The position numbers and the translations under genes were made by a program. A DNA stretch of 64,000 nt, from contig NZ_NFIP01000006.1 of assembly GCF_002161805.1 (NCBI RefSeq), forward strand, positions 1-64,000, in the 5' to 3' direction. Of the stretch, positions 1,368 to 19,534 are shown one piece after another (positions within the stretch are counted from its first letter, which is position 1; each line of letters begins with the position of its first letter). This DNA comes from Collinsella sp. An307. Lineage in GTDB: Bacteria > Actinomycetota > Coriobacteriia > Coriobacteriales > Coriobacteriaceae. Below the pieces are notes generated by a model that was not told the DNA's origin, did not search any database, and saw only the letters and a program-made list of their open reading frames with translations.

Positions 1368-1386
1368 CATTCGATTCAATCGAATG
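1368..1386. promoter_or_regulatory. 19-base perfect palindrome upstream of the Shedu-like gene
   Basis: CATTCGATT-C-AATCGAATG is a perfect 9-1-9 palindrome that ends 25 bases before the ATG at 1412, a typical place for an operator overlapping a promoter or leader. The binding protein is unknown. Confidence 0.55.
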
Positions 1387-1411
1387 CGCCTCGCTCGGAA
1401 AGGAGCAGCGT

Positions 1412-2734: not shown

Positions 2735-2894
2735 CAAGATGGAAGACGCTCAGAATAGGACTATGGGACCGGCGGGGCGAAGCAGGGTGCGGACTTCGGG
2801 GGGGCGGCATCGCCCACCTTGGAGAGGTGAGACGGCGCGCTCCCGATGCCGCAGCGGAAACCGTCCCTAGGTCGGATATCATGATGCTAAGTTC

Positions 2895-2912
2895 GTTTAC
2901 ATTCATGTAAAC
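2895..2912. promoter_or_regulatory. 18-base palindromic operator of the abiE operon
   Basis: GTTTACAT-TC-ATGTAAAC is a perfect inverted repeat ending nine bases before the abiEi ATG. AbiEi antitoxins are known to repress their own operon by binding inverted repeats in the promoter, so this is the likely site. It lies where a ribosome binding site would be, and no SD sequence is visible before 2922, so the mRNA may be leaderless or nearly so. Confidence 0.65.
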
Positions 2913-2921
2913 TATCGAAGC

Positions 2922-3947
2922 ATGGTAAAGCAATCTGACATATCGGAGCTGGAGCAGCTCGCCGCCTCCCAATGGGGGATGTTCACCACCGCCCAGGCGC
3001 AGGCGCTCGGGTTCAGGCGCAACCAGATCTCGCGCATGGTCGACTCCATGCGCGCCGAGCCCATGTGCTACGGGGTCTACCGGTTCGCCGCGGGGAGCGA
3101 GCCCGCGCACGCCGACCTCAAGGCGGCGTGGCTCTCGGCCTTCCCCAAGGAGACGGCGGCCGAGCGCCTCGCCAAGAGGCCCTTCGACGCCGTCGTCGCG
3201 GCGGAGACGGCAGCCGCCGCCCTGGGCGCCGGCGATTTTCATCTGTCCCCCTACACCTTCATCACGGCGGCCAGGAAACAGACGGTGCGCAAGGACATGA
3301 GATTCCTAGGGTGCTCGCTCGACGAGGCCGACGTCGTGATGATCGACGGGCTGCCGACGACGAGCTTCGAAAGGACCGTGTTCGACCTCCTTCGGATCGA
3401 CGAGGACCCCTCTCTCGTCGACGGGTTCATGCGCGACGCTGCCAGGAACCGCGCCCACGCCTTCGACTTCGAGAGGCTCTCGGAGCTCCTCGGCCCGATA
3501 GCGTCGCGGCACGGCTTCCCCGAAGGGGGCGCGGCCTTCGCAGCCGACCTCGTCCTGCGCAACGTGTCCGACGTGCTGGTCGACAGGGCGAACGACGCCC
3601 TGCGAAGCGCGATCGTCGACATATGCGGGAGCGAGGCGTTCCAATCTGCAGCGAAAAGCGCAAACGGCCTTCTTCTCGATATCCTAAGGAGCACTGGCAT
3701 CACATCCAAACTCGAAGAGATGCAGAGGACGCTCTTCGACTCGATTGGGAGCATGCATCTCGAAGCCATCAAAGAAATAGGGTTCCCCGGGACAGAAGCG
3801 TTTGCCAACGAGCTCGCGGCAGCAACCGATGCACTTCCGAAACCCAGCGCCGAAGGCGTTGCTTCGGCTCTAGCGAAAGCGACGAGAGCTCTTGATGCGC
3901 CAAGAGAGAGCAACAGAGCCGTGAACGCAGTAAGCGAGGAGAAATGA
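2922..3947 (+). CDS. abiEi: AbiEi-type antitoxin and autorepressor (type IV TA)
   Basis: A 341-residue protein with an N-terminal winged-helix region of the kind found in AbiEi (LEQLAASQWGMFTTAQAQAL..., residues about 8-50), followed by the YGVYRFA motif and the middle AbiEi domain (about 60-200). In the family the first domain binds DNA and the second neutralises the toxin. The protein is longer than usual: residues about 230-341 form an extra C-terminal tail rich in Ala, Ser and Lys, with lower GC than the rest. The stop overlaps the next start (ATGA), so antitoxin and toxin are translationally coupled. A palindromic operator sits directly upstream. Confidence 0.82.
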   Translation: MVKQSDISELEQLAASQWGMFTTAQAQALGFRRNQISRMVDSMRAEPMCYGVYRFAAGSEPAHADLKAAWLSAFPKETAAERLAKRPFDAVVAAETAAAALGAGDFHLSPYTFITAARKQTVRKDMRFLGCSLDEADVVMIDGLPTTSFERTVFDLLRIDEDPSLVDGFMRDAARNRAHAFDFERLSELLGPIASRHGFPEGGAAFAADLVLRNVSDVLVDRANDALRSAIVDICGSEAFQSAAKSANGLLLDILRSTGITSKLEEMQRTLFDSIGSMHLEAIKEIGFPGTEAFANELAAATDALPKPSAEGVASALAKATRALDAPRESNRAVNAVSEEK

Positions 3948-4867
3948 TGCCCAAGGAATATCAAAGCGCGCTTGCGCTGGAGCAGGCGGTCAAGGCGGCG
4001 GCGAGAAGGTCCGGGCAGGACGTCGGGCGCGCCGTGGAGGGATTCTACGTCGGCAGGCTGCTGGAGAGGGTCTTCAGCGAGGAGAGGAAGCCCTTCGTGC
4101 TCAAGGGCGGCAGGGGGATCCTCGCCAGGACCGTCGACGCCCGCTACACGACCGACACGGACTTCCTCTACAGGGGCGCCGACCTGGAGGAGGCCCTCGG
4201 GGAGCTCAAGCGCCTTGCCTCGAAGGACCTCGGCGACCGCATGGAGTTCCGGTTCGTCTCGGCGGACAAGATAGCCGCGACCCAGGAGTACCGCGACGGG
4301 TGCCGGGCGCGGTTCGAGGTCGTCCTCGACGGGACCAGGCGCAAGTCGGAGATAGCCATCGACCTCGTCGCCGATCCCGTCGAGCTCGGGAAGGCCGACC
4401 TGGTGACGCCAGCCAACAGGCTCGACGTGAAGGGCCTGGCCGTGTTCGACTACCTGGTCTACCCCGTGGAGAGGACCGTGGCGGACAAGGTGTGCGCCAC
4501 CATGCAGGCATACCCCGGCGGCAGGGAGTCGAGCCGGGTGAAGGACCTCGTCGACCTCGTGCTCCACGTGACCCGCTACGCCATGGCGGGCTCCGACCTC
4601 TCGAAGGCCATCGAGAGGGAGGCGGGAGTGAGGGGAATCGGCCCGCTCGACGCCTTCAAGGTGCCGGAATCCTGGCGCGGGCCCCGCGAGGGGGCGTACA
4701 GGAAGGCGGCCGCCGAGGCGAAGATCCCCGACCGGTGGCTCGGGGTCGCGGATGCCGAAAGGGTCGTCAAGGCGTGCGTCGACCCGGCGATAAGGCGGCG
4801 AGTCGAAGGGCTCGAATGGGATCCGGAAGCGCTGGGGTGGGCACCCGCACCACCATCGGAAAGATAA
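3944..4867 (+). CDS. abiEii: AbiEii-type nucleotidyltransferase toxin
   Basis: A 307-residue protein of the AbiEii/DUF1814 nucleotidyltransferase family, which stalls growth by modifying an RNA target (tRNA in related enzymes) when released from AbiEi. The catalytic segment is visible: FVLKGG (residues 51-56), then RYTTDTDF with the metal-binding aspartates D71 and D73. Later motifs are IAIDLVADPV and KGLAVFDYLVYPVERTVADK, typical of the family's second domain. The start ATG at 3944 overlaps the antitoxin stop by four bases and is preceded by AGGAGA. The KAP ATPase gene follows within 35 bases, so all three are probably co-transcribed. Confidence 0.85.
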   Translation: MMPKEYQSALALEQAVKAAARRSGQDVGRAVEGFYVGRLLERVFSEERKPFVLKGGRGILARTVDARYTTDTDFLYRGADLEEALGELKRLASKDLGDRMEFRFVSADKIAATQEYRDGCRARFEVVLDGTRRKSEIAIDLVADPVELGKADLVTPANRLDVKGLAVFDYLVYPVERTVADKVCATMQAYPGGRESSRVKDLVDLVLHVTRYAMAGSDLSKAIEREAGVRGIGPLDAFKVPESWRGPREGAYRKAAAEAKIPDRWLGVADAERVVKACVDPAIRRRVEGLEWDPEALGWAPAPPSER

Positions 4868-4902
4868 AGATGAAAGCAGACGGCGGACAAGGAGCGGCCA
4901 AG

Positions 4903-6753
4903 ATGGACGAGACCAGCATCATCGGCGTCGTGAGGGGGTACCTCGAGGACAGGGAGAACTCGTACGCCCTCATGCTCACCGGGGAATGGGGATGTGGGAA
5001 AACCTACTTCGTCAAGCATGCGCTGACCGAGAACCTGGAGGCGGGTGAGAGCCGGCATCCTGTCGTGGTGGCGTCCGCCTACGGCGTCAAGGACTTGGCG
5101 GAGCTTTGCGGGGCGATCGAAGCGGGCTTCATCTCGAAATGCGCAATAGGGCGCGCGGACAGCGGGAAGAAAAGCAGGAAGGACTCACTCGTCGAGTTCG
5201 CCAAAGACACGGGCGTGTCGTTCCTCGGGAAGAAAATCAGGGAGCTGGAGAAGAAGGCGGGCGTCGACCTCAAGATGGCGCCGCTGAACGCAGTGAACCT
5301 CATCATCGGCCCCGAGGCCCTTCTCGTCATAGACGACGTGGAGAGGTGCGACATGGGGCTTAGAGAGCTGCTTGGAGCGGTCGACCACCTCGTCGTCGGC
5401 TGCGGGAAGAAGGTCATCCTCGTCTGCAACGAGGACGAGTGGAGGAAAAGGATAGAGCCGAAGGATGGGAAGGGCCAGGACGCGAGGGGGACGGCCAAGG
5501 AATACGAGAATCTCATCGAGAAGACCGTCTGGCGGAAGTGCCGATTCGAGCCCTCGGTCGACTCGGTTGTAGAACGCGTTCTGGGAGACGTCTTGCGTGA
5601 CGTCTACCCGGAAGCGATCGAGGACGCAGCCTCAGCGATAAGGGAAAGCGGATCGCCGAACTTCCGGTCCCTCGGCAAGATGCGCCCCGTGCTTGTCGGG
5701 ATGGTGAAATCCGGGTTCTTCGCCGAACCCGCCGACCCGGAGTCCGCCAGGGCGGTCTTCAGGGAGGCTTGCGGATTTGCAGCGGGGGCGGCGAAGGGGA
5801 AGCGCATCGAGCCGCCGTCGAGCCGGGAGGACTCCGTCCTTAGGGGAGGCATCTTCGAGTCGCGCCGGCTCAAATACGCCGCCTTGGACTTCATCTCCTG
5901 CTTTTTCGAAAGGTGCGAGGGGGTTGATCCCGAGCACGTCCGTTTCTGCCTGGATGACTACCTTGCTACCTTCCACCCCGACGGGCCGGCCGCCCGGGAA
6001 GCCCTCAGGTGCATCGAAAAGATCAGGGACGTCGCGTTCCGCGACGCCGAGATCCCTGGTCTGGTGGAGGCGATAGTCGCCGGGATCGCCCCCGAGGACG
6101 GGAGCCGCGGCTTGTCGTTCGACGTCTATCCCGACGCCCTGCGCGCCGTCAACGGCATAGCGGATGATTTCGCGGACGCCCTTCCCGGGGGGACCGCGCC
6201 GCTCATCGAGGCGATGGAATCCTCCATCGGGCGGGATCCCGAATCTGCGGTGAAGTCGATCAGGAAGAATCGGGTCGAATGGCAGGAAATTCCTTTCGAC
6301 TCGAGCGGAACGTACGCAATTCCGGTCTTGGAGGAGATCGACAGGTTGAGAAAACTCGCCTTGACGACGCTGCGCGAAAGGGAATCGAGGTCTCTCGGCA
6401 ACGTCTTGGAAAACGCGCACGACCAATTCGCGGAAAAGCTCTATCTGACTTTCTCGAAATTAGATGATCGATCGGAGCCCATCCTGTCTCTCATTTCCCT
6501 CGACGCTTCTCTCTTCATGAGGGCGTTGGAGAAGATGTCTCCCGGGGACATTCGGCTTGTGCACAGGGCTCTCTCTCCGGACGGCCTCATGGGGTCGCGT
6601 CCCGCCTCGTTAAAGGATGAGGACAGGAAGGCCCTTGCAGCTTGGGCCAAAAGGATCGAATCAGAGATCGGCGAGGTCGAGGCCAAGGAATACTACCAAA
6701 GAATCTACTTCGAGGCCATATCCCGCAGCCTCGATGAGCTTGCCCATCTCTAA
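4903..6753 (+). CDS. KAP-family P-loop ATPase, probable defence protein
   Basis: A 616-residue protein. Walker A is GEWGCGKT at residues 27-34; Walker B is ALLVIDDVERC near residue 140. The Asp-Asp/Glu-Arg-Cys pattern and the following LVCNEDEW are typical of KAP-family NTPases. The rest is helical, with no membrane insertion segment visible, so this is a soluble KAP. KAP ATPases occur in phage-exclusion and other defence operons. The start at 4903 is chosen because AAGGAG precedes it; an upstream in-frame ATG at 4870 has no SD. The gene has no promoter of its own that I can see and lies 35 bases after abiEii. Confidence 0.75.
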   Translation: MDETSIIGVVRGYLEDRENSYALMLTGEWGCGKTYFVKHALTENLEAGESRHPVVVASAYGVKDLAELCGAIEAGFISKCAIGRADSGKKSRKDSLVEFAKDTGVSFLGKKIRELEKKAGVDLKMAPLNAVNLIIGPEALLVIDDVERCDMGLRELLGAVDHLVVGCGKKVILVCNEDEWRKRIEPKDGKGQDARGTAKEYENLIEKTVWRKCRFEPSVDSVVERVLGDVLRDVYPEAIEDAASAIRESGSPNFRSLGKMRPVLVGMVKSGFFAEPADPESARAVFREACGFAAGAAKGKRIEPPSSREDSVLRGGIFESRRLKYAALDFISCFFERCEGVDPEHVRFCLDDYLATFHPDGPAAREALRCIEKIRDVAFRDAEIPGLVEAIVAGIAPEDGSRGLSFDVYPDALRAVNGIADDFADALPGGTAPLIEAMESSIGRDPESAVKSIRKNRVEWQEIPFDSSGTYAIPVLEEIDRLRKLALTTLRERESRSLGNVLENAHDQFAEKLYLTFSKLDDRSEPILSLISLDASLFMRALEKMSPGDIRLVHRALSPDGLMGSRPASLKDEDRKALAAWAKRIESEIGEVEAKEYYQRIYFEAISRSLDELAHL

Positions 6754-6872
6754 AGTTGCCGCTTTAGCCGAGTCGAGAGGCGGCGGCGCTTGATATCGTC
6801 GGCGAGTTACCGACGGCCGCTCTACCGCGGAGATGAGGGTTCCTCATTTCCGGGGCATCCTTCCCGTATGGC

Positions 6873-7082
6873 CTAGACTCCCGCCCAGGCGTCGTCGAGG
6901 TCGGACGCGCAGCTTTCCACCACGCACCTCACGGCGGCAATCTCCGACGGGGTCACGCTCCCGCTGCCGGCCTTCTCCTCGAGCATGGCGAGGATGGATG
7001 CGGCTCCTTCGAGGCGCTCGGTCGAGCGCACGATTGCGTCGATGGATTCTTGGGGTAGATTGGTGCTGCGGATGCCTTCCAT
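6873..7082 (-). CDS. small hypothetical protein
   Basis: A 69-residue, mostly helical acidic protein (MEGIRSTNLPQESIDAIVRS...). The ATG at 7082 has AAGGGAG about five bases upstream, which is why I prefer it to an ATG seven codons further out. Its codon pattern looks genuine. It lies between the defence cargo and the inverted-repeat unit at 7161, on the same strand as the ParA operon. Function unknown. Confidence 0.5.
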   Translation of the reverse strand: MEGIRSTNLPQESIDAIVRSTERLEGAASILAMLEEKAGSGSVTPSEIAAVRCVVESCASDLDDAWAGV

Positions 7083-7160
7083 GGGGCTCCCTTTCCTTGG
7101 CACGGCGGTCGAGGGAAGGATGTCCTCCGGGGCATGAAGAGAGAGGCATCCACCTCAGTT

Positions 7161-7251
7161 GTCACCCTGTTGGGAAATGTACGCCAAATACCCAAAACGG
7201 CAGATGCCCCTCTGTCCGGTATTTGGCGTACGAGTATTCAGTTAGGGTGAC
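7161..7251. repeat. 91-base interrupted inverted repeat (MITE-like or att-like)
   Basis: The outer arms GTCACCCT (7161-7168) and AGGGTGAC (7244-7251) and the inner arms TACGCCAAATACC (7180-7192) and GGTATTTGGCGTA (7218-7230) are perfect inverted repeats. No target-site duplication is obvious. It separates the defence cargo from the Rep/Par operon. Confidence 0.6.
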
Positions 7252-7336
7252 CGCCCTATTATACGCGCCGCGGCACCGCTTCGCCCGAAATGCACAACGC
7301 GGCAGGGCGGGAGCGGCGCGCGGCGGCGCCGTGCGC

Positions 7337-7396
7337 TCACATGAAGCGGAAGACGGCCTTGAAGAGCCATCGCGCGAACCTCGCCACGATCCTCAT
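7337..7396 (-). CDS. 19-residue cationic peptide coupled to the rep gene
   Basis: The frame encodes MRIVARFARWLFKAVFRFM. Its ATG overlaps the stop codon of the replication-initiator-like gene (ATGA) and has GGAGGG upstream, so re-initiation is likely. The sequence alternates Arg/Lys with Phe, Trp, Val and Leu, as an amphipathic helix would. It could be a membrane-active peptide or only a fortuitous frame; its size makes this uncertain. Confidence 0.4.
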   Translation of the reverse strand: MRIVARFARWLFKAVFRFM

Positions 7397-8613
7397 GACG
7401 CAGCCCTCCTCCCGTCCGCCGGCGCGGCGCCGCGGCGGCCGCCTCCGTGCAGCAGCTCGCAGATCGCGAGGTAGCGCCCGTAGCGCTCCTCGCACGCCGC
7501 CATGTACTTCCCGTAGAGCCTGTCGCCGGCGCACCTCTCCGCCACGTCCTCCTCGCTCGCCCCGGGCCGCTCGTCGTAGAGCAGCGAGCGCACGATGCTG
7601 CGCCGCGACTCGACCTTGCGCCAAAGGGGCGCGAACTCGGGGTCGGCCTTAGCGAGGCCGGGCATGTCGAGGGGCTCCCCGTCGCATCCCAGAAGGTCGG
7701 GAGGGACGGGCTCGTCCGCCCACGCGGCGAGGCCGTCCTCGCCCTCGATCCAGCGCAGGAGGTTCTTCGCGAGGCGCCTGTCGTCGCCGTTGCGCAGCCA
7801 GTAGCTCCTCGAGTACGCCGCGTAGGCGTCGGCGATCTGGCCGGGGAGGAACCCCGAGGCGACCTTGCGCCGCCACGCCTCGTGGCAGTCGCGCTTGAAC
7901 CTCAGCGACGCGACGGGCTTGAGCGACATCGCGCACAGCCGCTCGAACGCCTCGGGGAACTCGCCCCTCCTGTACGGCCTGAAACCGCCCGTCTCCTCCG
8001 CCTTCCCGGCCGCCTCCGGGGGGCAGGAGGGGGGTTGTTCATCAGGGTCAGTCTTTCCATCCTTTGAGTAGTTTATAGGGGCGGATTCCCCAGATATGGG
8101 TTTTCCGGATGTGGCTTCCCCGGATGTGGCCGCGCCAGATACGGGTTTTCCCGTTCTGGGTACGACCTGGGCTTTTTCGGGGGCGCCCTCCCCGCCGCGC
8201 CCGCCATGGGGGTCGGCGCCGGACGCCTCGTCTGCCGGCTGGGCGTCGCTTCTGGAAAACTCGGAGAGGACGGCGAACCCGTCGGCCTTGAGCTCCTCGG
8301 ACACTGCGCCGTGCATGGCGGGGTCGTCGAGCGTGATCCAGGTGGCCTCCTCCGCCTTGAGAAAGCGGCCGTTCTCGCTCCTCTTGCGGGCGCGGATGAT
8401 GTAGCCGGCCGCCTCGAGCTCCTTGATCCCGGCGGTGACGGCGTCCACCCCGTCTCGGACCAGCGAGGCGAACCCCCGGATGGTGAAGACCCACTCGGGG
8501 TTGCTCTCCAGCGAGCGGATCTGGCAGTAGATGCCCTTTGCCTTCAGGCTCAGCGAGCGGTCGAAGAACACGGTGTTCTCGACGTGGGTGAAGGAGCCCT
8601 TGCCCCTGTGCAT
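7393..8613 (-). CDS. replication-initiator-like helix-turn-helix protein of the element
   Basis: A 406-residue protein. Residues 1-100 (GSFTHVENTVFFDRSLSLKA..., IRGFASLVRDGVDAVTAGIK, AAGYIIRARKR) match the winged-helix domain of RepA/DnaD-like initiators of plasmids and conjugative elements. A low-complexity linker (about 125-200, Gly/Ser/Pro rich) leads to a C-terminal helical domain with many Arg, Trp and Tyr residues. The start ATG at 8613 overlaps the parB stop by one base (TGATG), so the genes are coupled. It probably opens the element's origin during circular replication, by analogy. An in-frame GTG one codon upstream is an alternative start. Confidence 0.68.
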   Translation of the reverse strand: MHRGKGSFTHVENTVFFDRSLSLKAKGIYCQIRSLESNPEWVFTIRGFASLVRDGVDAVTAGIKELEAAGYIIRARKRSENGRFLKAEEATWITLDDPAMHGAVSEELKADGFAVLSEFSRSDAQPADEASGADPHGGRGGEGAPEKAQVVPRTGKPVSGAATSGEATSGKPISGESAPINYSKDGKTDPDEQPPSCPPEAAGKAEETGGFRPYRRGEFPEAFERLCAMSLKPVASLRFKRDCHEAWRRKVASGFLPGQIADAYAAYSRSYWLRNGDDRRLAKNLLRWIEGEDGLAAWADEPVPPDLLGCDGEPLDMPGLAKADPEFAPLWRKVESRRSIVRSLLYDERPGASEEDVAERCAGDRLYGKYMAACEERYGRYLAICELLHGGGRRGAAPADGRRAAS

Positions 8614-9578
8614 CACATTGCCCACGGCTCCCCTCCCTTCTCCTGGGCGGCGCGCCTGCGTTCCGCCTGCTCGAGCAGCTCGAGGGCGCGAACGATGCGG
8701 CCCTCGATCTCCTCGCGGGTCGCGGAGGGGTCGAAGAACCGGGCGATGCTCCTCTTGGGGATCTTCACCTGCTCGACCTGGTTGGGCTTCTCCTCCTCCA
8801 TGATCGACTGGACGAGCGCGGGGGTGAGGCAGCGCGCGCTCGAGTAGCGCTTCAGCTTGAGCGCCTGTGCGTGGGAGGGGGTGCAGGCGCAGGCCCGCAT
8901 CGAGTCGAGCAGCCATTCCTGCTCGTCCTTCGAGAGGTAGCTGGCCTCCACCGCGGGCAGCATCCTCATGCGCCCCTCGTCGACGAGGGCGAGCAGCTCC
9001 GGGATGAGGTTTGTGAGCCTGATGTAGCGCCTCACCTTGGCGCCGCTGACTCCCAGCTCCTCGGCCAGGACGTCGCGTGAGCGCTTTCCTTCCAACTTGT
9101 GTTCATTTTGCACACAAGTTAGGTCGGTGCGCTTCCCTTGGCGGTTCATGGCCTCGAGGCGCATCGCGTAGGCGAACGCGCGCTCGCTGGGCAGGATCGA
9201 CTCTCTCTGGAGGTTGGAGTCCACCATCGCGATGACGGCCTCGTCGTAGGACATCTCCTTGACGATGCACGGGACGCTCTCGAGCCCCGCGCGCTCTGCG
9301 GCGGCCTTGCGCCGGTGCCCGCTGACGAGTCCGTAGCGGCCTCCGTCGACGGGCCTCACCGCGAGGGGGACGAGGACGCCGTTGCGCGCGACGCTCTCGA
9401 CGAGCGCCTCCATCTCCTCGTCGTCGGCGACGCGGAAGGGGTGCTCTGGGAACGGGTCGATCTCTCCGAGCGGGATCTGGCGGACCTCGTCGGCGAGGGC
9501 GCGGTCGCGCTCCTCCTGCGAGGTGAAGAGGTCTTCGATGGCGGGAAGCCCGATGGAGGCGCCCTTCTTCCTAGCCAC
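8613..9578 (-). CDS. parB: ParB-like partition protein
   Basis: A 321-residue protein with the ParB/Spo0J layout. The N-terminal nuclease-like domain includes IPLGEIDPFPEHPFR and the GRYGLVSGHRRKAAAE box (ParB box II). A helix-turn-helix follows (RSRDVLAEELGVSGAKVRRY, about residues 165-190), then a C-terminal coiled region rich in Glu and Arg. Modern ParB proteins use CTP through the GHRR box. It overlaps parA by eight bases and the rep-like gene by one, which makes a compact parA-parB-rep operon. It would bind a centromere site; a candidate lies at 10442-10469. Confidence 0.85.
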   Translation of the reverse strand: MARKKGASIGLPAIEDLFTSQEERDRALADEVRQIPLGEIDPFPEHPFRVADDEEMEALVESVARNGVLVPLAVRPVDGGRYGLVSGHRRKAAAERAGLESVPCIVKEMSYDEAVIAMVDSNLQRESILPSERAFAYAMRLEAMNRQGKRTDLTCVQNEHKLEGKRSRDVLAEELGVSGAKVRRYIRLTNLIPELLALVDEGRMRMLPAVEASYLSKDEQEWLLDSMRACACTPSHAQALKLKRYSSARCLTPALVQSIMEEEKPNQVEQVKIPKRSIARFFDPSATREEIEGRIVRALELLEQAERRRAAQEKGGEPWAM

Positions 9579-10356
9579 GGCGGTCCACCTCCTCCGCGAG
9601 ATCGGCGAAGGCCCTGGCGGCCCTGCCGGAGGCGTCGTAGGAGAAGACGCTCTCGCCCGCGGCGGCGGACTCGGCCGCGGAGACGGCGCGCGGCACCACG
9701 GTGTCGAAGACGCGGAGCGCGGCGCCGTACTGCTCCCGGATGGCGCGCTCGACGTCGCGCGCGAGGTTGTTGCGGGAGTCGTAGAGCGTCACCAGGATGC
9801 CCTCGACGGACAGCCCGGGGTTGATCTGGCGCCTCACGCGCCCGACGGTCTTGAGCAGCCCCGCCATGCCCGAGGCGGGGAGGTACTCCGCTGACACGGG
9901 GATGATCACGCCGTCCGCCGCGACGAGGGCGTTGACGGGGATGATGCCGAGCGTGGGGGCGCAGTCGAACAGGATGTAGTCGTAGTCTGCGCGCAGGGGC
10001 TCCGCCCACGTCTTCAGGATGCGCTCGCGGGACATGGCCATGAACACGGCCATCTCGAGGCTGGCGAGCTCGATGTTGGCGGGCATGAGGTCGACCCCCT
10101 CGCGATGGCCCAGGATGCCCGCGCGAGGGTCCTCGTCGGCCCCCTCGATGACCGCTGCGATGTGGGTCGCGACCGTCGTCGCGATGGAGTCGGGGTCGGC
10201 CCATCCGAGCGATTTGGTCAGATCCCCCTGCGGGTCGGTGTCGACCAGCAGCACGCGCCTGCCGCGCCGTGCGAGCGCCACCCCGAGGCTCAGCGTGGTG
10301 GCCGTCTTGCCGGTGCCGCCCTTCTGGTTGGCGACCGCTATTGCCTTGCATGGCAT
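9571..10356 (-). CDS. parA: ParA-like partition ATPase
   Basis: A 261-residue ParA/MinD-family ATPase. The deviant Walker A motif is KGGTGKT (residues about 12-18), Walker A' is LLVDTDPQGD, and Walker B is YILFDCAPTLGI. It lacks an N-terminal DNA-binding extension, so it is the short (type Ib/Soj-like) form. The start at 10356 has GGGAGG seven bases upstream. First gene of the par-rep operon; the truncated tRNA-Gly promoter at 10751-10779 points toward it. Confidence 0.9.
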   Translation of the reverse strand: MPCKAIAVANQKGGTGKTATTLSLGVALARRGRRVLLVDTDPQGDLTKSLGWADPDSIATTVATHIAAVIEGADEDPRAGILGHREGVDLMPANIELASLEMAVFMAMSRERILKTWAEPLRADYDYILFDCAPTLGIIPVNALVAADGVIIPVSAEYLPASGMAGLLKTVGRVRRQINPGLSVEGILVTLYDSRNNLARDVERAIREQYGAALRVFDTVVPRAVSAAESAAAGESVFSYDASGRAARAFADLAEEVDRRG

Positions 10357-10441
10357 GTTGCTTCCTCCCTTCCGCGGACTTGCGCCGCGTCCCGGGAGGT
10401 CAGAAGATATTGGCTTGCAGTTTGGGGAAGCTGCAGGAGGG

Positions 10442-10469
10442 CCGCAGGCGGGCGTCACGCCCCTTGCGG
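10442..10469. promoter_or_regulatory. candidate parS/operator palindrome upstream of parA
   Basis: CCGCA...GGGCGT-C-ACGCCC...TGCGG forms a 28-base imperfect palindrome centred on 10456, 86 bases upstream of the parA start. Partition loci often carry such a site for ParB, or for ParA autoregulation. No second copy was noticed nearby. Confidence 0.4.
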
Positions 10470-10683
10470 TCTCTCCGCCTCTGCCGCGTATCGGGTTCGA
10501 GGACAGGCGTTCCCGGCCTGATGACTTCGGTCGCAGCCGCTGGAACTGGACGGAAATACCGCGTTTTTCCAGTGCGAACCGATTGATTCCAGTAAATGAT
10601 GGATAGCGAAAACAGCCGTTTGACGTGGTGTTTTATAGAAACCAGCTGTTTTGGGGTTCGAATCGGATGCGGGTTACTATGTA

Positions 10684-10720
10684 TTGGGAAGCTGATGCCT
10701 TACCACTTGGCGATGCCCGC
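10684..10720 (-). pseudogene. 5' half of tRNA-Gly(CCC), cut at the anticodon loop
   Basis: Read on the minus strand, this is the acceptor strand GCGGGCA, a complete D arm (GCCAAGTGGTAAGGC), the anticodon 5' stem and the loop TTCCCAA with anticodon CCC. The pairing strand GCTGA, the T arm and TGCCCGC are absent; unrelated sequence follows directly. A promoter sits in the correct place upstream. This is the expected footprint of an element integrated in the anticodon loop. The 3' half should lie at the far end of the element or have been replaced. Confidence 0.72.
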
Positions 10721-10750
10721 ATATCACGTCGTCGCAACGACGTAGGGGAT

Positions 10751-10779
10751 AGTATACCGTGCCGGTTTTGGCGGGACAA
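10751..10779 (-). promoter_or_regulatory. promoter of the interrupted tRNA-Gly
   Basis: On the minus strand a -35 TTGTCC (10774-10779) and a -10 TATACT (10751-10756) are separated by exactly 17 bases. They lie about 30 bases upstream of the tRNA 5' end. Transcripts would now run through the half-tRNA into the element's parA operon. Confidence 0.65.
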
Positions 10780-10952
10780 GGCTTCGCTCTTAGAACCGCC
10801 GCGGTCGCCACGCATTCGACTCATACCACAGCATTACTACCCCTGTGTACCAAGCAGACAGAAGTTCAGAACCAGCCTCTTGTAACAAGGGATATCTCTC
10901 CTCTCGAAAAAGATAGATAAATCTAACTTTTCACCTACCGGTCGCCTTTTAT

Positions 10953-10969
10953 CTGATAAGTTATATCAG
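10953..10969. promoter_or_regulatory. CTGATA-N5-TATCAG inverted repeat before the DUF3793 gene
   Basis: A perfect 6-5-6 inverted repeat 26 bases upstream of the ATG at 10995, in an AT-rich promoter zone. Its place ahead of a flavodoxin/ferrochelatase cluster suggests an iron-responsive repressor site (Fur or DtxR type). The regulator is not identified. Confidence 0.4.
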
Positions 10970-10994
10970 GTTAACACTTAAGCGAGGAGAGTCT

Positions 10995-11738
10995 ATGGAC
11001 CGACCGCTGTTAGGCGAAGAGCTCGAGAAAGCATTCGTGCGCTCGTGTGGCCCCGTCCTGCTCGGCGCCAAACCTGCCAACCTGTTTACCTTCTGCGGGC
11101 GTTTTGATGAGAACTGCTCCGTATGCGACAAGGGCTGCCGACAAAACCAACCACGTGAAAGAAACCCTCTGGTTGAGCAGCGCCGCAAGAAACTCGCACT
11201 CCTCGTTGATGAGCTCGATGCGAAGCTGTCGGCATGCGGTGTGCGTTGCGTTGTCCTTGCGTGGAGGCCTTTCGGCGCTCTCGTGTACGGATACCGTCCC
11301 TCACTCGTAGCACATCACATCAAACACGCCCCAATCGCCCACGACCTATTGGTTCGTGGATACCCCATAGAGAGGCTAGCGGACCGTTCACGCCCTCTAC
11401 CTTCGGAGATGCCCTCCTGCAACATCAATCGGCCGATTCGGCATGAGGAGTTCCTGGCTCCGTGCATCGCCCATCTCGCCAAGCGGTTTCTAGAGCAGCC
11501 GGTCCCACACGAAATCGGCTATTTCCTTGGATATCCCGTCTCAGATGTGCGCGGCTTCATCGAGCACGAAGGCCGAAACTTCCTTTGCTGCGGCTGCTGG
11601 AAGGTATATGCCAACGTCCGCAGCGCGCAATACCGCTTCGCGCGTTATAAGCGCTGCACCCGAAGGGCGATTCGACTATACAACGCAGGAGTTTCGATTG
11701 TTGATCTGGCACGAGATCCCACCGTCAAGGTTGCGTAG
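10995..11738 (+). CDS. DUF3793-family protein
   Basis: A 247-residue soluble protein. Its N-terminal cysteines (FCGRF...CSVCDKGC) and the motif EIGYFLGYPVSDVRGFIEHEG are hallmarks of the DUF3793 family. This family is typically found beside flavodoxin and iron-starvation genes in Clostridia and Coriobacteriia. The motif FLCCGCWKVY gives further Cys residues that could bind metal. The start has GCGAGGAG upstream. A flavodoxin gene follows after 64 bases, and an inverted repeat precedes it. The biochemical role is unknown; involvement in iron-limited growth is inferred from context. Confidence 0.75.
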   Translation: MDRPLLGEELEKAFVRSCGPVLLGAKPANLFTFCGRFDENCSVCDKGCRQNQPRERNPLVEQRRKKLALLVDELDAKLSACGVRCVVLAWRPFGALVYGYRPSLVAHHIKHAPIAHDLLVRGYPIERLADRSRPLPSEMPSCNINRPIRHEEFLAPCIAHLAKRFLEQPVPHEIGYFLGYPVSDVRGFIEHEGRNFLCCGCWKVYANVRSAQYRFARYKRCTRRAIRLYNAGVSIVDLARDPTVKVA

Positions 11739-11802
11739 CCAGGCGTCCAGATTGGTAACCCGGTTCGGCAAAGGGCCGACCTCAACGTAGAAAGGAACGA
11801 AC

Positions 11803-12222
11803 ATGAGCAAGGTCGCGGTTGTGTACTGGAGCGGCACGGGAAACACTGAAGCGATGGCGGAATTCGTCGCCGAAGGCGCCCGGGCCGCAGGTGCCGAGGC
11901 AGAGGTTATCGCTTGCGCTGATTTCTCTTCGGCAAACCTGGACGACTTCGACGCTTTTGCCTTCGGATGCCCCGCCATGGGCGCCGAAGAGCTGGAGAGC
12001 GAAGAATTTGAGCCCATGTGGGACGATGTCGAGCCAGAGCTTCCAGGTCGTCGCGTTGCACTGTTTGGTAGCTACGACTGGGCAGACGGCGAGTGGATGG
12101 ACCTGTGGCGCGAGCGCGCTGAGGGCGCGGGCATTACGGTCATCGGCACCGTTATCGCTAAAGATTATCCTGATGAAGAGGCGACCGCTGCTTGCAAGGC
12201 GCTCGGTGCCGAACTAGCATAA
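11803..12222 (+). CDS. flavodoxin
   Basis: A 139-residue short-chain flavodoxin. The FMN phosphate-binding loop WSGTGNTEAMAE is at residues about 8-19. Later loops CPAMGAEELE (around the first aromatic position) and GSYDWADGEWMD contact the flavin in the family. It replaces ferredoxin as a low-potential electron carrier when iron is short. AGAAAGGA precedes the ATG. It sits between the DUF3793 gene and the ferrochelatase gene, both on the same strand. Confidence 0.93.
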   Translation: MSKVAVVYWSGTGNTEAMAEFVAEGARAAGAEAEVIACADFSSANLDDFDAFAFGCPAMGAEELESEEFEPMWDDVEPELPGRRVALFGSYDWADGEWMDLWRERAEGAGITVIGTVIAKDYPDEEATAACKALGAELA

Positions 12223-12278
12223 AGGATACCCATACCGACAAACAACAAACAGTTTGCATGCTACCTAGGGGGATCTGG

Positions 12279-13307
12279 ATGAATCAACAACGTGCGCAGG
12301 GGCCAACCGGCGTCCTGCTCATCAATACCGGATCCCCCTCCCCCCCAACACCGGAAGCAGTCCGCACCTACCTAGGGCAATTCCTCATGGACGACCGCAT
12401 CCGGCCATTGCCTGCGCCGGTGTGGAGGGCGATTCTTGAACATATCATCTTGCCGCGACGGTGCCCCGCATCTGCCCAGAAATACGCTGCGATATGGGGT
12501 GACAAAGGCTCTCCGCTTATTGCGGGCTGCTGCGAGCTCGCCTCCCAAGTTGAGACGATTATCCGATCCCGAGGGCGCGAGGGGCGGAGTGCCTCGGCTA
12601 CAGACGTGCCGCTTGTCCGCGCAGCAATGACCTACGGGGAGCCGTCTGTTGCCTCGGTTCTTAAGGAGCTCAAAGACGCAGGGTGCACGCAGCTCATCGC
12701 GCTCCCCCTGTACCCGCAATCCGCCTTCGCCACAACCGCTGCGGCGTTGGGCGCCCTTGATCGCAACCTCAAGCAGATGGCATGGCAGGTGCCGACCATA
12801 TCAATCGAAGCGTACGGGGATAACGAGGCATATCTCGACGCCGTTGCAGATTCGATACTTCAGGCAGGCTATCGCCCCCAAAGCGATTATCTCCTCCTGT
12901 CGCTGCACGCAATTCCGCTCCCCGACATCGATGCGGGAGATACCTATACCGAGCAGGTTCGTCGTTCATCTCACGCCATCGCTGAGCGACTTGGCGCTCC
13001 CAGCGGTGCCTGGTCGATTGCCTATCAGTCACCGTTTGAGGACGGCAGGCGTTGGACCGGGCCCTATACGGCGCGCGTTGTCACCAGACTCGCCAAAAGC
13101 GATAGCCGGCGCCTCACGGTGGCATGTCCGGGCTTTGCGGTTGACTGTCTCGAAACTCTCTACGACATCGACCGGATTCTTCGCGCAACGTACCGGGATG
13201 CACAAGGCAATCCCGCGAACGACCTTCTATATGTCCCCTGTTTGAATGCCTCAAAATCGCATGCAGAGGTCCTCGCAGAGATTGTTCTACAGGCGATGAA
13301 CGAGTAG
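12279..13307 (+). CDS. hemH: ferrochelatase-family protein (HemH/CpfC)
   Basis: A 342-residue protein of the class that inserts Fe(II) into protoporphyrin or, in actinobacteria, coproporphyrin III. Family features are the start GVLLINTGSPSPPTPEAVRTYL, the segment LPLYPQ, the active-site histidine in SLHAIP, and the late CPGFAVDCLETLYDI with the conserved glutamate. The start at 12279 has AGGGGG upstream; an earlier in-frame ATG at 12258 lacks a good site. No other haem-synthesis genes are in the window, but a multihaem cytochrome is encoded at 60183, so haem is needed. Confidence 0.88.
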   Translation: MNQQRAQGPTGVLLINTGSPSPPTPEAVRTYLGQFLMDDRIRPLPAPVWRAILEHIILPRRCPASAQKYAAIWGDKGSPLIAGCCELASQVETIIRSRGREGRSASATDVPLVRAAMTYGEPSVASVLKELKDAGCTQLIALPLYPQSAFATTAAALGALDRNLKQMAWQVPTISIEAYGDNEAYLDAVADSILQAGYRPQSDYLLLSLHAIPLPDIDAGDTYTEQVRRSSHAIAERLGAPSGAWSIAYQSPFEDGRRWTGPYTARVVTRLAKSDSRRLTVACPGFAVDCLETLYDIDRILRATYRDAQGNPANDLLYVPCLNASKSHAEVLAEIVLQAMNE

Positions 13308-13395
13308 CCTTCGCCTAAAGATAGCGAGGGACACGCACGCTTGGGTATCTGCAGCTGTCAGCAAAGCCAAGCGCGCGCATCCCGTAATAGCACCG

Positions 13396-15129
13396 CTAGA
13401 GCGTCCACTCCGCGCTCGCGGTCTGCAGATGCACCATACGGGCAAAAAGACCATTGGCAGCCAGGAGCTCGGCGGGGCTGCCCTGCTCGACCACGCGGCC
13501 ACCATCGAGCACCACGATCTTGTCTGCACTCATGACGGTACGCATGCGGTGAGCGATGACGATAACGGTCTTGCCGACAAGCAAATGCGAGAGCGCCTCT
13601 TGCACCTGCGTCTCGTTCTCCACGTCGAGCGATGCCGTGGCCTCGTCCAAGAGCACAACCGGAGCGTCTTTGAGCAGCGCTCGGGCGATGGAGATGCGCT
13701 GACGCTCGCCGCCGGAGAGCTTGGAGCCGTTCTCGCCGATCATGGTGTCGTAACCCTTAGGCAGGCGGCTCACAAACTCATCGCAGTTGGCCGCGCGCGC
13801 CGCCGCGAGCACCTCCTCGTCGGTGGCGCCGCGCCGACCCAGGCGAATATTGCCCATTACCGTATCGTCAAAAAGCAACACATCCTGGAATACCACGGCA
13901 AAGTCGCGCAGCAGCACCTCGGAATCCACGCCAGACACGTCCACACCGCCCACGGTTACGCGGCCCGCATTGGCATCCCACAAGCGACAGCTCAAGCGCG
14001 CACAGGTAGACTTGCCGGAACCGCTTGGCCCCACAAGCGCCATGACCTCGCCTTCGCACGCAGTGAACGTCACCCCGTCGAGAACCTTCTCGCCACCATC
14101 GTAGGAGAAGGACACATCTTCAAAGGCGACGTCGTGGCCGTTTGGTTCGTACGTCTCGCCGCCCTGTGCAAGCGGCTCCTCATAGAAGCTCTTCATGCGC
14201 GACGCAGCGGTCTTGGCCGAGAAGAGCTCGGCGATGAGCATGAGGCACTGATCAAAGGGCGCGTAGATGCGGCTCACCACCACAAGAAAGGCAAAAAGCG
14301 TCATGAACGTGCAGGAGCCCTCCAAGATGAAGGTTGCACCGGCGAGAACCGTCGTGGCGAGGCCGAGGCGCAGCACAACTTGGGCACCGTTGACGGCGAT
14401 ACCGCACGCAACTTCGGAACGGGCCGCCTGTCGCTCAGCAGCATCGATGTCGGCATGGATGTGCTCGAGGTAGCGGTCCTCCTGGTTTGTGGCGCGCACC
14501 TCTCGCACGCACTCGAGAGCCTCTTGGATATCCTCGGAGGTAGCGAGTCCACGCAAACGCGTGGCCTCCATCATGGGCTGGAGCGTGCGGCGAGCCCCAA
14601 AGAGAATCGCAAGCCCCACCGGACAGCTCCAGAGCGATGCGAGCGCAAGCCGCCAGTCGAAGAAAAGAAGTCCTATGGCGGCGACAGCGAGCGTGATGTA
14701 GGCACCATAGAGCTCGGGGAGCACGTGGCTATAGGCGTGCTCGGTGGTCTTGACGTCGGTCATGAGGGTCTCGGTGAGGTCGGCAAGGTCGCGCCGGCCA
14801 AAAAACGAGAGGGGCAGTTTGCGCAGGCGCTCCGCGAGGCCGATGCGCTGCCGGCCACTTTCCTTATAGATGACGCCGTACTGGTAGTAGTAGGCAAGGT
14901 ACTCGGTCGCAAAAAGCACGACGGCAAAGATTACAATCGCAGCTGCGTACGGGGCAAGCGGGGGTAGCGGCGCGCCCTCGGTGAGGTGCGCCATGAGCGC
15001 CTCCATAAGCAGGTAGACAATACCCACCCCACCGAAGATGACGAGGTTGGAGGCGGCCGTCCATACGGTGCCAAGCTTCACATTTCTCATGCCCTCGTCG
15101 GTGAGGGCGTACTTCTCTTGGATACTCAT
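13396..15129 (-). CDS. ABC transporter, fused permease-ATPase (YbtQ/IrtB-like half)
   Basis: A 577-residue half-transporter. Six membrane helices fill residues about 20-300, followed by a complete nucleotide-binding domain: Walker A GPSGSGKST, signature LSGGERQRI, Walker B VVLLDEATASLD and the switch histidine in IAHRM. It begins directly after the stop of the 611-residue partner with no spacer, so the two form a heterodimer. The layout with a divergent AraC regulator matches yersiniabactin-type YbtP/YbtQ and mycobacterial IrtAB, which import metal-siderophore complexes despite exporter folds. Substrate is inferred. Confidence 0.83.
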   Translation of the reverse strand: MSIQEKYALTDEGMRNVKLGTVWTAASNLVIFGGVGIVYLLMEALMAHLTEGAPLPPLAPYAAAIVIFAVVLFATEYLAYYYQYGVIYKESGRQRIGLAERLRKLPLSFFGRRDLADLTETLMTDVKTTEHAYSHVLPELYGAYITLAVAAIGLLFFDWRLALASLWSCPVGLAILFGARRTLQPMMEATRLRGLATSEDIQEALECVREVRATNQEDRYLEHIHADIDAAERQAARSEVACGIAVNGAQVVLRLGLATTVLAGATFILEGSCTFMTLFAFLVVVSRIYAPFDQCLMLIAELFSAKTAASRMKSFYEEPLAQGGETYEPNGHDVAFEDVSFSYDGGEKVLDGVTFTACEGEVMALVGPSGSGKSTCARLSCRLWDANAGRVTVGGVDVSGVDSEVLLRDFAVVFQDVLLFDDTVMGNIRLGRRGATDEEVLAAARAANCDEFVSRLPKGYDTMIGENGSKLSGGERQRISIARALLKDAPVVLLDEATASLDVENETQVQEALSHLLVGKTVIVIAHRMRTVMSADKIVVLDGGRVVEQGSPAELLAANGLFARMVHLQTASAEWTL

Positions 15130-16965
15130 CTAATCCACCTCCCGGGCGCTCGTGATGCGCCAGCTCACAGACCGTTCGTAGTCCGCCCACATGCGCGCGT
15201 AAAGACCGCCCGCCGCTAGGAGCTCCTCGTGCGTCCCTTGCTCAACCACGCGCCCCGCGTCGAGCACCACGATTTTGTCGGCTTCGCGCACAGTGGAGAG
15301 CCTGTGGGCAATCATGAGGACCGTGCGAGGCTCACCGTTGCGACCGCGGGCGAGGCGCTTGAACGCTGTCTGGATCTTGACCTCGTTCTCCGGGTCGGCA
15401 AAAGCCGTCGCCTCATCGAGCACCACTACCGGCGCGTTCTTCAAAATGGCGCGTGCGATCATGAGACGCTGCACCTCACCTCCCGAGAGGTGAGCGCCGC
15501 CTGTGCCCACAAGGGTATCGACGCCGTTAGGCAGCTTCTCCAGAATATCGCCGCACTGAGCGGCCTCGAGTGCTTCGAGTGCCTCGCCGCGGGTAGCGTC
15601 CGGACGGGCAGCGCGAACGTTTTCGAGCACCGTCTGTTTAAACGGGCGATTTGCCTGGAAGACAAAAGCAACACGGTCCATGAGCTCGGCAGGGTCCATG
15701 TCCCGCACGTCCGCACCACCAAGCTCCACGCGCCCCGAGTCAACGTCCCAGAAACGCGGAACGAGGCTCGCCGCCGTGGTCTTACCGCCGCCGGAAGGGC
15801 CCACGAGCGCTACCGTGGAGCCGGCAGGCACCTCAAAGCTCACATGGTCGAGCGCCGGCGCCTCCGCTCCCTCGTAGGTGAAGGTAACGTCCTCGAAGCG
15901 GACGGCGTTGCCCTGGGGCATGCGAGGATTCACGGGTGCCGAGATGACAGGCGCGGCGAGCACCTCTTCCACGCGCGTCACCGCGTCTGCCGCCGACTGA
16001 AACGCCTCGGACATGAACATCACGCGCGTGACGGCGGTAGGAACCACGGCTGAAAAGATTGCGTAGAAGGCGAAATTAGCGACAAAGCGCGCAACGTCGC
16101 CCTCGCCAGGCGCTAGCAGAATCGCCGCGGGCACCAAAAAGATCGCGACGCCGTTTAGGACGGTAAGCGAGAGCGACTGTGGGGTCTGGCACCACTTGAC
16201 TGCATAGTCCTGCGCGAGCCGCGTGAACTCGTCTATGGCGTCGTGGAACGCGCGGAAACTGTAAACCGTCTGCTGGAAGACCTTGACCACGGGGATGCCG
16301 CGCACATACTCCGTACCCGTCTTGTTCATCTTGACGAGCGACTCCATGTAGCGCGTCATGAAGTCCATACCGCGCCCGCCCATCATGTAAAAGAGGCAGG
16401 CAAGCGACACGATCACCGATATCATGCACGCAAGTCCAAGGCGCCAGTCGAAGACGAAAAACAGGGCTATCATCCCAACGATCATGGCCACAGACCCGGC
16501 CGTGTCCGGGAGCTTGTGGGCGAGCAGGCCCTCGGTCTCGGCGGCGCAGCCGTCCACGACGCGGCGAAGCGCGCCGCTTGCGTGGGTATCGAAGTAACCC
16601 AGGCTCGCATGCATAAGGTGGTCCGTGGTGCGCTTGCGCATGTTGGACGCGCAGCGGAATGCCGCAAGGTGCGTGCACATGAGACCGGCAAAGTAGAGCA
16701 GGATGCTCGCGCCCGAAAGCCCGAACGCCCACCAGCCATACACAGCGATTCCCGTTGCAGCGCCCCAGTCGGGTGCGACTGCGATGAGATCACGCGCTAC
16801 GAACCAAACACAGATGTACGGCCCAAAGCTCACGAGCATCGAAACCGCCGAAAGAGCGCAACCCAGATACGTGAGCGCGCGGCGAGAGCCGGCGAAAGCA
16901 AGCAGGCGCCCCACGGCGCCCTTGCCACGGGCACCGCCCTCTGCCGCCGAGCGTGAATCAGACAT
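15130..16965 (-). CDS. ABC transporter, fused permease-ATPase (YbtP/IrtA-like half)
   Basis: A 611-residue half-transporter with six predicted membrane helices (about 25-320) and an ATPase domain: Walker A GPSGGGKTT, signature LSGGEVQRL, Walker B VVVLDEATAFADPENE. The DEATAFADPENE block is characteristic of siderophore-type exporters/importers of the YbtP/IrtA group. The start at 16965 has GGGAGG upstream; the first 18 codons of the longer frame lack support. It is the first gene of a two-gene operon divergent from the AraC regulator (88-base shared promoter region), next to a ferrochelatase gene. Confidence 0.83.
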   Translation of the reverse strand: MSDSRSAAEGGARGKGAVGRLLAFAGSRRALTYLGCALSAVSMLVSFGPYICVWFVARDLIAVAPDWGAATGIAVYGWWAFGLSGASILLYFAGLMCTHLAAFRCASNMRKRTTDHLMHASLGYFDTHASGALRRVVDGCAAETEGLLAHKLPDTAGSVAMIVGMIALFFVFDWRLGLACMISVIVSLACLFYMMGGRGMDFMTRYMESLVKMNKTGTEYVRGIPVVKVFQQTVYSFRAFHDAIDEFTRLAQDYAVKWCQTPQSLSLTVLNGVAIFLVPAAILLAPGEGDVARFVANFAFYAIFSAVVPTAVTRVMFMSEAFQSAADAVTRVEEVLAAPVISAPVNPRMPQGNAVRFEDVTFTYEGAEAPALDHVSFEVPAGSTVALVGPSGGGKTTAASLVPRFWDVDSGRVELGGADVRDMDPAELMDRVAFVFQANRPFKQTVLENVRAARPDATRGEALEALEAAQCGDILEKLPNGVDTLVGTGGAHLSGGEVQRLMIARAILKNAPVVVLDEATAFADPENEVKIQTAFKRLARGRNGEPRTVLMIAHRLSTVREADKIVVLDAGRVVEQGTHEELLAAGGLYARMWADYERSVSWRITSAREVD

Positions 16966-17053
16966 ATCATCCTCCCTGTCCGTTGAGGCCTTGATTGGCA
17001 GCACCCCGCAACGTATCATGTGATGAGCAGAAAGTTAGTATTAGTTAACTCAT

Positions 17054-18088
17054 ATGAGACAACCTCTCATGAAAGGCGGACGAATCTTCAAGATGACGGG
17101 CGCAGGAAGCATTTCCCGTGAGCTGGTTGCTCTCTTTGAGCCTCAGGTCGAGCAGCTTGGCATACGCCTGGAACGAAGGGGCGGCATCTGGACGGGCTTT
17201 GCCGCGGGTGGCAAAGCGCAGGGGTCGATGTGGCTCTGCACGCCTTCGCCGCACTGCCTTGTGCTCTGCCATGACGTAATTCCGCTCGAAGATATGCCGC
17301 TCTTTGAAGGATCCCTGGGCCCGTACGCCTGCGCCTGCACGATGGGCTTCGATGCCGTTGAGTGTTCTCGGGACTGCGGCCTTCCCGTCAGGTTCGTCGG
17401 CACCGAAAGCTGCAGGCAGCGGCCAGGAGACGAAGTCGCCACATTCGTGGAGCAGGGCCCACGCTCACTATCCAGCCGCCTTGTCGCCGGCCGTGTCTAC
17501 CGCTCCCGCTCCATCATCATGTTGCCCGAGCTCTTTGATGAGCTGGAGCGCCGGTACTCAGGGGAATTCAGCAAGCTTTTCCCTGCGTTCGGTAAACGCT
17601 GGGGGACCAGCTCTGAGCTCGCAATCCGCGATGCTCTTGATGCCATCCCCACGCACCCGCCAACTCATCCCGGCAGCGAATTGGGGCTCCTCTCGACCGT
17701 CACTTCATTGCTGGCATCGCTCGTGACAGACGGGACAGGCGCTTGCCAGGATACGGAGGACCTCGCACGCCGTGCAGAAAGGCTCATAGCCTCTGCAATC
17801 GAGGTGAACGGAGTGCCGCCCTCTGTCGACGACCTTACAAACGCGCTCTACATAAGCCGGTCACGACTCTGCGATGCGTTCAAGCGCTCGACTGGCCATA
17901 GCATAGGCGCATACGCGCGGAAGCTGAGGATGGCACGGGCGTGCCGCCTCCTTGAAGGCGGTGGGCTCTCCATAGCGGAGGTTGCCGCGACCTTGGGCTA
18001 CCCGAGCCCATCGGCATTCTGTCATGCCTTTGCCTCTGCCATGGGGCTCTCTCCCCGCAAATGGGTCGAACTACAACAGAGACGTTAG
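17054..18088 (+). CDS. AraC-family transcriptional regulator
   Basis: A 344-residue protein. The C-terminal about 100 residues hold the double helix-turn-helix of AraC/XylS proteins: SVDDLTNALYISRSRLCDAF, then GLSIAEVAATLGYPSPSAFCHAF and the closing GLSPRKW. The N-terminal about 230 residues have several Cys residues and no recognisable sugar cupin. It is divergent from the YbtPQ-like transporter, as YbtA is in Yersinia, and probably controls it in response to siderophore or iron. The start is uncertain: no strong ribosome site precedes 17054, and ATGs at 17069 and 17093 are alternatives. It overlaps the convergent acetyltransferase gene by four bases. Confidence 0.82.
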   Translation: MRQPLMKGGRIFKMTGAGSISRELVALFEPQVEQLGIRLERRGGIWTGFAAGGKAQGSMWLCTPSPHCLVLCHDVIPLEDMPLFEGSLGPYACACTMGFDAVECSRDCGLPVRFVGTESCRQRPGDEVATFVEQGPRSLSSRLVAGRVYRSRSIIMLPELFDELERRYSGEFSKLFPAFGKRWGTSSELAIRDALDAIPTHPPTHPGSELGLLSTVTSLLASLVTDGTGACQDTEDLARRAERLIASAIEVNGVPPSVDDLTNALYISRSRLCDAFKRSTGHSIGAYARKLRMARACRLLEGGGLSIAEVAATLGYPSPSAFCHAFASAMGLSPRKWVELQQRR

Positions 18089-18555
18089 AGGCGAAGCAGC
18101 ATGAGCGCCTCCTCGTCGTCGCCACCTTCCTCTACAAAACCTAGGCGCTGGTACAGATGGATGGCGCGGTTGGCACGCTGGGCAGAAAGCGAAACGGCAG
18201 GAAAGCCTGACTCGCGCAGGCGCTCGATCAGCCCACGCAGCAGTTGTGTCCCCACGCCCCGGCCGCGCCATTGGGGCCAGAGGGCGATGGCGATCTCGGG
18301 CACGCCCTCATAGAGAAAGCCGCAGCTATGGATCAGGCGCGCCCATGAGGCGCCGACTATCTCGCCATCAACCTCGGCCACAACGCCAATATCCCCCGCG
18401 CGCTTACCAAAGTCCTCAACATACGCACGGAATTCCGGCTTGTTGAGGATGCTCCGCGGAAAGGGCTCCTGCCCCTCGGGGACAAAGATCGACTCATAGA
18501 GAATGTCATCGAGCAGCGGTATCTCTTCCTCTGCGATATCTCGAATCTGCACCAT
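18085..18555 (-). CDS. GNAT-family N-acetyltransferase
   Basis: A 156-residue protein with a single GNAT domain. Motif A, WRGRGVGTQLLRGLI (about residues 95-109), binds the acetyl-CoA pyrophosphate, and SLSAQRANRAIHLYQRLGF is the usual motif B. The N-terminal IRDIAEEEIPLLDDILYES is the typical first strand and helix. The substrate is unknown. It is divergent from cysE and convergent with the AraC gene. Confidence 0.88.
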   Translation of the reverse strand: MVQIRDIAEEEIPLLDDILYESIFVPEGQEPFPRSILNKPEFRAYVEDFGKRAGDIGVVAEVDGEIVGASWARLIHSCGFLYEGVPEIAIALWPQWRGRGVGTQLLRGLIERLRESGFPAVSLSAQRANRAIHLYQRLGFVEEGGDDEEALMLLRL

Positions 18556-18699
18556 AGCCCACCTCTTCTGCGCACCTGAGCGTTACGACTCGTGCTAAAT
18601 CCTAGTAATCCTATAGACATTTGCACGACGCACCTCTACCATACTGGCATCGACGCGTGGCGCGCAAGCTCGCCGCGCATCCCAGAGGGGAGTCTCACC

Positions 18700-19470: not shown

Positions 19471-19534
19471 GTCGAACGAGTCGCGCGAAGCCGTATAATG
19501 TTGACGTTATGACCCCGATAGTCAAAGGAGCCGT

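Follow-up and report, generated by a model that had tools for sequence, protein, structure and literature searches.

The half tRNA-Gly(CCC) gene near the left end of the window (the whole 64,000-nucleotide stretch analyzed here, which is the start of contig C14 in the 17-contig draft assembly of Collinsella sp. An307, genome G000) is very probably the attL scar left by a site-specific integrative element that brought with it a complete tRNA-Gly of the same anticodon, and whose attR was later deleted in this genome. The left 10.7 kb of the integrated element occupies window positions 1–10683 and continues on contig C17 (positions 1–22679), with an order of parts that is conserved in complete relatives.

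The gene fragment lies at 10684–10720 on the minus strand and represents positions 1–38, the 5′ half of the native host gene and the left side of attL. Read from 10720 to 10684 it is GCGGGCATCGCCAAGTGGTAAGGCATCAGCTTCCCAA, followed by unrelated sequence beginning TACATAG, and its last base is the final base of the anticodon loop (position 38). All 37 of its bases are those of the intact tRNA-Gly(CCC) genes at the syntenic locus in G002 and G007, and ARAGORN called no complete tRNA at 10684–10720. On the same strand, a consensus scan placed a promoter-like site at 10751–10779, with a −35 element TTGTCC (10779–10774), a 17 bp spacer, and a −10 element TATACT (10756–10751); it matches the consensus at 9 of 12 positions and is conserved in relatives. 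An earlier note made from the sequence alone had described the 5′ half of a tRNA-Gly(CCC) with a well-spaced promoter, ending at the 3′ edge of the anticodon loop. The sequence, the promoter scan, and the intact genes of congeners confirm this description, with the refinement that, within the extent of 10684–10779 it assigned, the half gene proper covers 10684–10720 and the remainder (10721–10779) is leader and promoter. The minimal attachment core, GCTTCCCAA (10684–10692, minus strand), consists of the anticodon loop and two stem bases and is common to attB and the inferred attP in 10 of 12 elements analyzed; GCCTTCCAA takes its place as minimal core in both elements at tRNA-Gly(TCC).

Two genomes of the same genus, G002 and G007, preserve the empty site. 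Both match the window at 94–95% from 10684 on, the match ends at 10684, and both hold an intact tRNA-Gly(CCC) in place of the half gene; the left 10.7 kb of the element is absent from them. The left flank of their site corresponds to window 10684–21300 (95.7–95.9% identity) and the right flank to C17 from its tRNA to 27965–28279 (95–98%). Because these flanks match outside both segments, window 1–10683 and C17 from position 1 to the tRNA are inserted DNA, and the comparison identifies 10683/10684 as one attachment junction of an element of ~33.4 kb (window 1–10683 plus C17 1–22679). The idea that C17 continues rightward into the element was ruled out, as its right side is host chromosome that matches the flank in G002 and G007. 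That an element with par-rep genes starts at an attachment junction at 10683/10684, and that relatives without those genes should hold an unbroken tRNA-Gly(CCC), had both been proposed in the earlier note, and both proposals are borne out by the two empty sites, as is its placement of the crossover within the anticodon loop, where an integrase would have acted. Fragments of tRNA genes are common in genomes, and the half gene might be imagined as a decayed or duplicated relic with no tie to integration. This reading is almost certainly wrong and is refuted by the empty sites, since relatives lacking the par-rep genes have a complete gene exactly there and their match ends at 10684.

The far end of the element was located on C17. 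There, a small HTH_17 protein resembling an excisionase (20796–21116) and a tyrosine integrase, whose open frame ends at 22500 (Pfam Phage_integrase), lie directly before a second tRNA gene. An integrase gene had been predicted outside the window, and this one carries a Pfam tyrosine-recombinase domain; by profile comparison with the PDB set it matches structures of Tn1549-type Int and of Xer. Roughly 100 bp beyond the integrase frame is a complete, element-borne tRNA-Gly(CCC) (C17 22605–22679) with its own promoter, similar to the native one, and directly after its CCA comes host flank ~95% identical to G002. The expectation that the other junction would carry the 3′ half therefore holds in part: related elements do have a displaced native 3′ half at the far end, together with a complete element tRNA, whereas the far end in G000 lacks the displaced half and has a whole second tRNA-Gly(CCC).

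Viewed alone, G000 shows one half gene and one complete gene, which is also what a classical tDNA island would leave if an attP fragment (promoter and 5′ half) joined the native 3′ half at attR to rebuild the host gene; among 3919 mapped islands, 2083 have anticodon-centered sites and 159 have 5′ fragments (PMC4383910). For G000 such an island is nonetheless very improbable. The 3′ half of the C17 tRNA has eight differences from the native 3′ half in 38 positions, yet the flank that follows it is ~95% identical, and it forms 12 of 12 stem pairs with its own 5′ half versus 10 of 12 with the native 5′ half. For the relatives this reading is refuted, as they hold a complete element tRNA and a separate native 3′ half. 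An element that carries just a promoter and 5′ half to rebuild the gene was likewise ruled out, given that the 3′ half on C17 is non-native. Judged from these sequences, the host gene appears to have been replaced by a spare copy rather than rebuilt from two ends.

The same arrangement recurs across a widespread family of elements in gut actinobacteria. Homologous integrases were detected in 22 of 396 sampled Coriobacteriia genomes, and also in named records from Slackia, Gordonibacter, Enterorhabdus, Adlercreutzia, and an uncultured Collinsella. Nearly all readable loci display the order integrase, promoter, complete tRNA-Gly, terminator, CCAGT repeats, core, and displaced native 3′ half; the exceptions are decayed or contig-end loci, the fused cases in G000 and G013, and tandem cases. 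Both ends were recovered for 12 elements, five of them each on one contig (80 kb in Gordonibacter pamelaeae, 62 kb in G200, 53 kb in G204, 48 kb in G242, and 40 kb in G280) and seven with ends on different contigs, paired by inference. When the native halves were rejoined, ARAGORN accepted a tRNA-Gly in all 12 elements, and the acceptor and anticodon stems formed 12 of 12 Watson–Crick pairs in 11 elements and 11 of 12 in the remaining one. Element tRNAs pair at 11–12 of 12 stem positions, mixed native and element halves at 9–10 of 12. The native 3′ half lies 171–208 bp beyond the element tRNA, and the core common to the target and the inferred attP spans 10–17 bp in these 12 relatives, always containing GCTTCCCAA or GCCTTCCAA. 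Element and target anticodons agree in all 12 pairs (ten CCC and two TCC, the two TCC elements being related to each other and thus not independent events). Searches with a native tRNA in the chromosomes of G088, G200, G204, and G242 (one or two contigs each) recovered no full-length tRNA-Gly(CCC) apart from the element tRNA; the other matches were the two halves and tRNA-Gly genes that are more distant.

We propose that the anticodon loop of the host tRNA-Gly(CCC) gene is where the tyrosine integrase makes its crossover, using a short core that comprises GCTTCCCAA and a few further bases. A core of this length could not restore the gene, so integration would divide it into the promoter-bearing 5′ half seen in the window and, at the opposite end of the element, a 3′ half. 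The host would keep a working tRNA by expressing, and coming to depend on, the element’s complete tRNA-Gly of the same anticodon, located between the integrase gene and the attachment site, since this gene comes with a promoter and, in relatives, with a terminator too. Precise excision in relatives should rejoin the native gene.

The element in G000 departs from this family pattern at its right end. G242 has the same type of element tRNA as G000, with one difference from the C17 tRNA, and its right end is intact. C17 and G242 are 89.7% identical as far as the final base of the CCA (22679), after which C17 switches to host flank. The right end on C17 lacks the terminator and the repeats as well as the core and the native 3′ half, and attL alone is present in G000. 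In G013, which belongs to another genus, an element-type tRNA sits beside an integrase remnant and is fused with flanking sequence related to that in G024. The host 3′ half is gone in both G000 and G013, and the element-borne gene is the sole complete tRNA-Gly(CCC) found in either. The element tRNA and the native 3′ half end in the same 10 bases (GCCCGCTCCA), and the simplest reading for G000 would be a later deletion between these two copies, an event that would have removed the right attachment core along with the native 3′ half and left the element tRNA fused to host flank. We also considered that attR is really intact and that its absence from C17 is an assembly error collapsing two tRNA 3′ ends. 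The assembly is a short-read draft in 17 contigs, the 3′ ends share 10 identical bases, and both contigs break inside the element; but a repeat of ten bases is short to cause a mis-join, C17 extends for 105 kb beyond the point where tRNA meets host flank, and G013 has the same fusion of element tRNA to native-type flank. We consider such an error unlikely.

If the deletion of attR is real, the element in G000 would be left without its usual way out, and its tRNA would be the only complete tRNA-Gly(CCC) of the host. A tRNA-Gly(TCC) is present in G000 and could decode GGG through wobble, so the host may be able to do without the CCC gene. Whether integrating elements offer a route for the permanent swap of a host tRNA gene for a foreign one, in which the element tRNA-Gly(CCC) becomes the only copy after attR deletion and persists through decay of the element (in G013 an integrase remnant alone is left beside it), seems to us evenly balanced.

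The gene content of the G000 element combines a backbone common to its relatives with cargo. Nearest the junction, on the minus strand, are ParA (9571–10353; Pfam AAA_31/CbiA), with homologues 73–74% identical at the same end of the G204 and G280 elements, ParB (8613–9578; Pfam ParB_N), with homologues in G204, G280, and G242, and a probable replication initiator (7393–8619) that matches Pfam HTH_36 below the curated cut-off and has a 65% identical homologue in G280. A fourth backbone protein beside the contig break (109–822, minus strand) has no assigned function and no Pfam match, and its homologues in G204 and G280 are 63–65% identical. The cargo genes lie on the plus strand and were identified by Pfam and PADLOC as a Shedu SduA nuclease (1412–2734; Pfam SduA_C, PADLOC 1.1e-111), an AbiEi–AbiEii pair (2922–4867), and a KAP-family NTPase that is a candidate defense protein (PDC-S49; 4876–6753). 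PADLOC extends this defense-like block (window 1412–6753) across the contig break to C17 486–4603, which includes Hachiman HamAB. We infer from relatives that the junction of C14 and C17 falls within one element: comparison with G204 and G280 places C14:1 beside C17:1 with an estimated gap of ~70 bp, from which the ~33.4 kb total follows, with a somewhat different offset given by the Gordonibacter alignment, and no direct sequence overlap was found between the starts of the two contigs. Neither a relaxase nor a coupling protein was found in G000, so the relaxase and transfer genes by which an integrative and conjugative element (ICE) is recognized are lacking there. A conserved mobilization region (C17 ~4650–5330) holds a NikA-like remnant (4887–5297); beyond it, at the place of the relaxase gene in relatives, the sequence is unrelated, which suggests that mobilization was lost in the G000 element.

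Complete relatives carry ParA, ParB, and the HTH_36 protein at their attL end, the backbone they have in common with G000. A MobA/VirD2-type relaxase is encoded in the Gordonibacter, G204, G242, and G280 elements, and a coupling protein with a VirB4-like ATPase in those of Gordonibacter, G204, and G242, with PrgI confirmed in Gordonibacter. Relatives of the integrase were absent from 50,697 phage records (E 1e-20), from IMG/VR viral contigs, and from plasmid records, and no structural phage gene was recognized among the subset of proteins examined. With par-rep, relaxase, and type IV secretion genes in relatives and an integrase without phage relatives, the elements do not resemble temperate phages; gene content indicates a non-phage family, several members of which would be conjugative.

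Several loci bear on the spare tRNA itself. One element tRNA, in G255 (C21 ~27150–27600), has been broken in two, and the ParA gene of a different element comes next; because of this split by a second element, it appears that spare tRNAs can become targets in their turn. In G254 (C1 287800–289000) the left-end sequence of another element stands immediately after the core that lies downstream of the element tRNA, and G118 (C1 2302300–2321300) has a tandem or nested arrangement of these elements. Position 38 is T instead of A in several element tRNAs (G000, G242, G021, G013, and G244), altering the attachment core, and this might lower recombination into the element’s own tRNA. G006 (loci L048 and L090) has no such integrase, and the region of its native promoter, tRNA, and terminator resembles the element cassettes of G242 and G021, hinting that the tRNA cassette was captured from a host of its genus.

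Other sequences at this tRNA gene were also observed. G062 (L086; C33 128853–128927 and 133908–133955) has an element of ~5 kb at the same tRNA-Gly(CCC) anticodon loop, with a different tyrosine integrase of 454 aa, a displaced 3′ half at one end, and a complete gene at the other; it is apparently of the classical restoring type. Downstream of tRNA-Gly(CCC) in L055, L057, and L059 are GC-rich stretches of ~150 bp that repeat the tRNA 3′ end and an apparent terminator, and that look like small repeats or scars left by integration.

Catalogued tDNA islands restore the gene they disrupt through an attP fragment (Islander database, PMC4383910). The elements described here are like the anticodon-centered islands in that catalogue in their tyrosine integrase, their crossover in the anticodon loop, and a displaced tRNA fragment that marks one end; unlike them, both host halves are displaced in the relatives and a complete, separate gene substitutes for the host’s. 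Half tRNA genes that tDNA-island finders could misread would thereby be explained. The 80 kb Gordonibacter pamelaeae element, which shares its par-rep backbone with that of G000, is like ICEs with MOB/T4SS modules, in contrast to the G000 element with no detectable relaxase or coupling protein.

The closest counterpart is tRNA-dependent lysogeny, shown experimentally for actinobacteriophages (Fionnbharth, Gabriela, OneUp, and others; Guerrero-Bustamante and Hatfull 2024, PMC10865867) in a study that asks how prevalent it is beyond them. We found no example of a non-phage element with a complete replacement tRNA in the open-licence literature. Both systems have a tyrosine-family integrase, an attB in a host tRNA gene with a short core that does not rebuild the gene, and a complete tRNA of the same isotype on the element; the phage core of ~8–11 bp (PMC10865867) is too short to rebuild a tRNA, and the core in the 12 family elements is 10–17 bp. 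Tandem integration into the element’s own tRNA is another possible likeness. Unlike those temperate phages, the present family is non-phage and has ParA/ParB, relaxase, and type IV secretion genes; its tRNA lies between the integrase and attP in every intact case, and its target is tRNA-Gly(CCC) or tRNA-Gly(TCC). By this comparison, the mechanism appears to correspond to that of tRNA-dependent lysogeny, but in a non-phage family. This suggests that elements other than phages, too, bring along a tRNA gene in order to survive integration: a whole family with conjugation genes seems to be built so, its members keeping the spare tRNA at a constant place between integrase and attachment site, with an anticodon that agrees with that of the target. 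The arrangement also offers a possible path for replacement of a host tRNA gene by a foreign one, and its CCC and TCC versions could serve as a natural test system for the joint change of element and target specificity.
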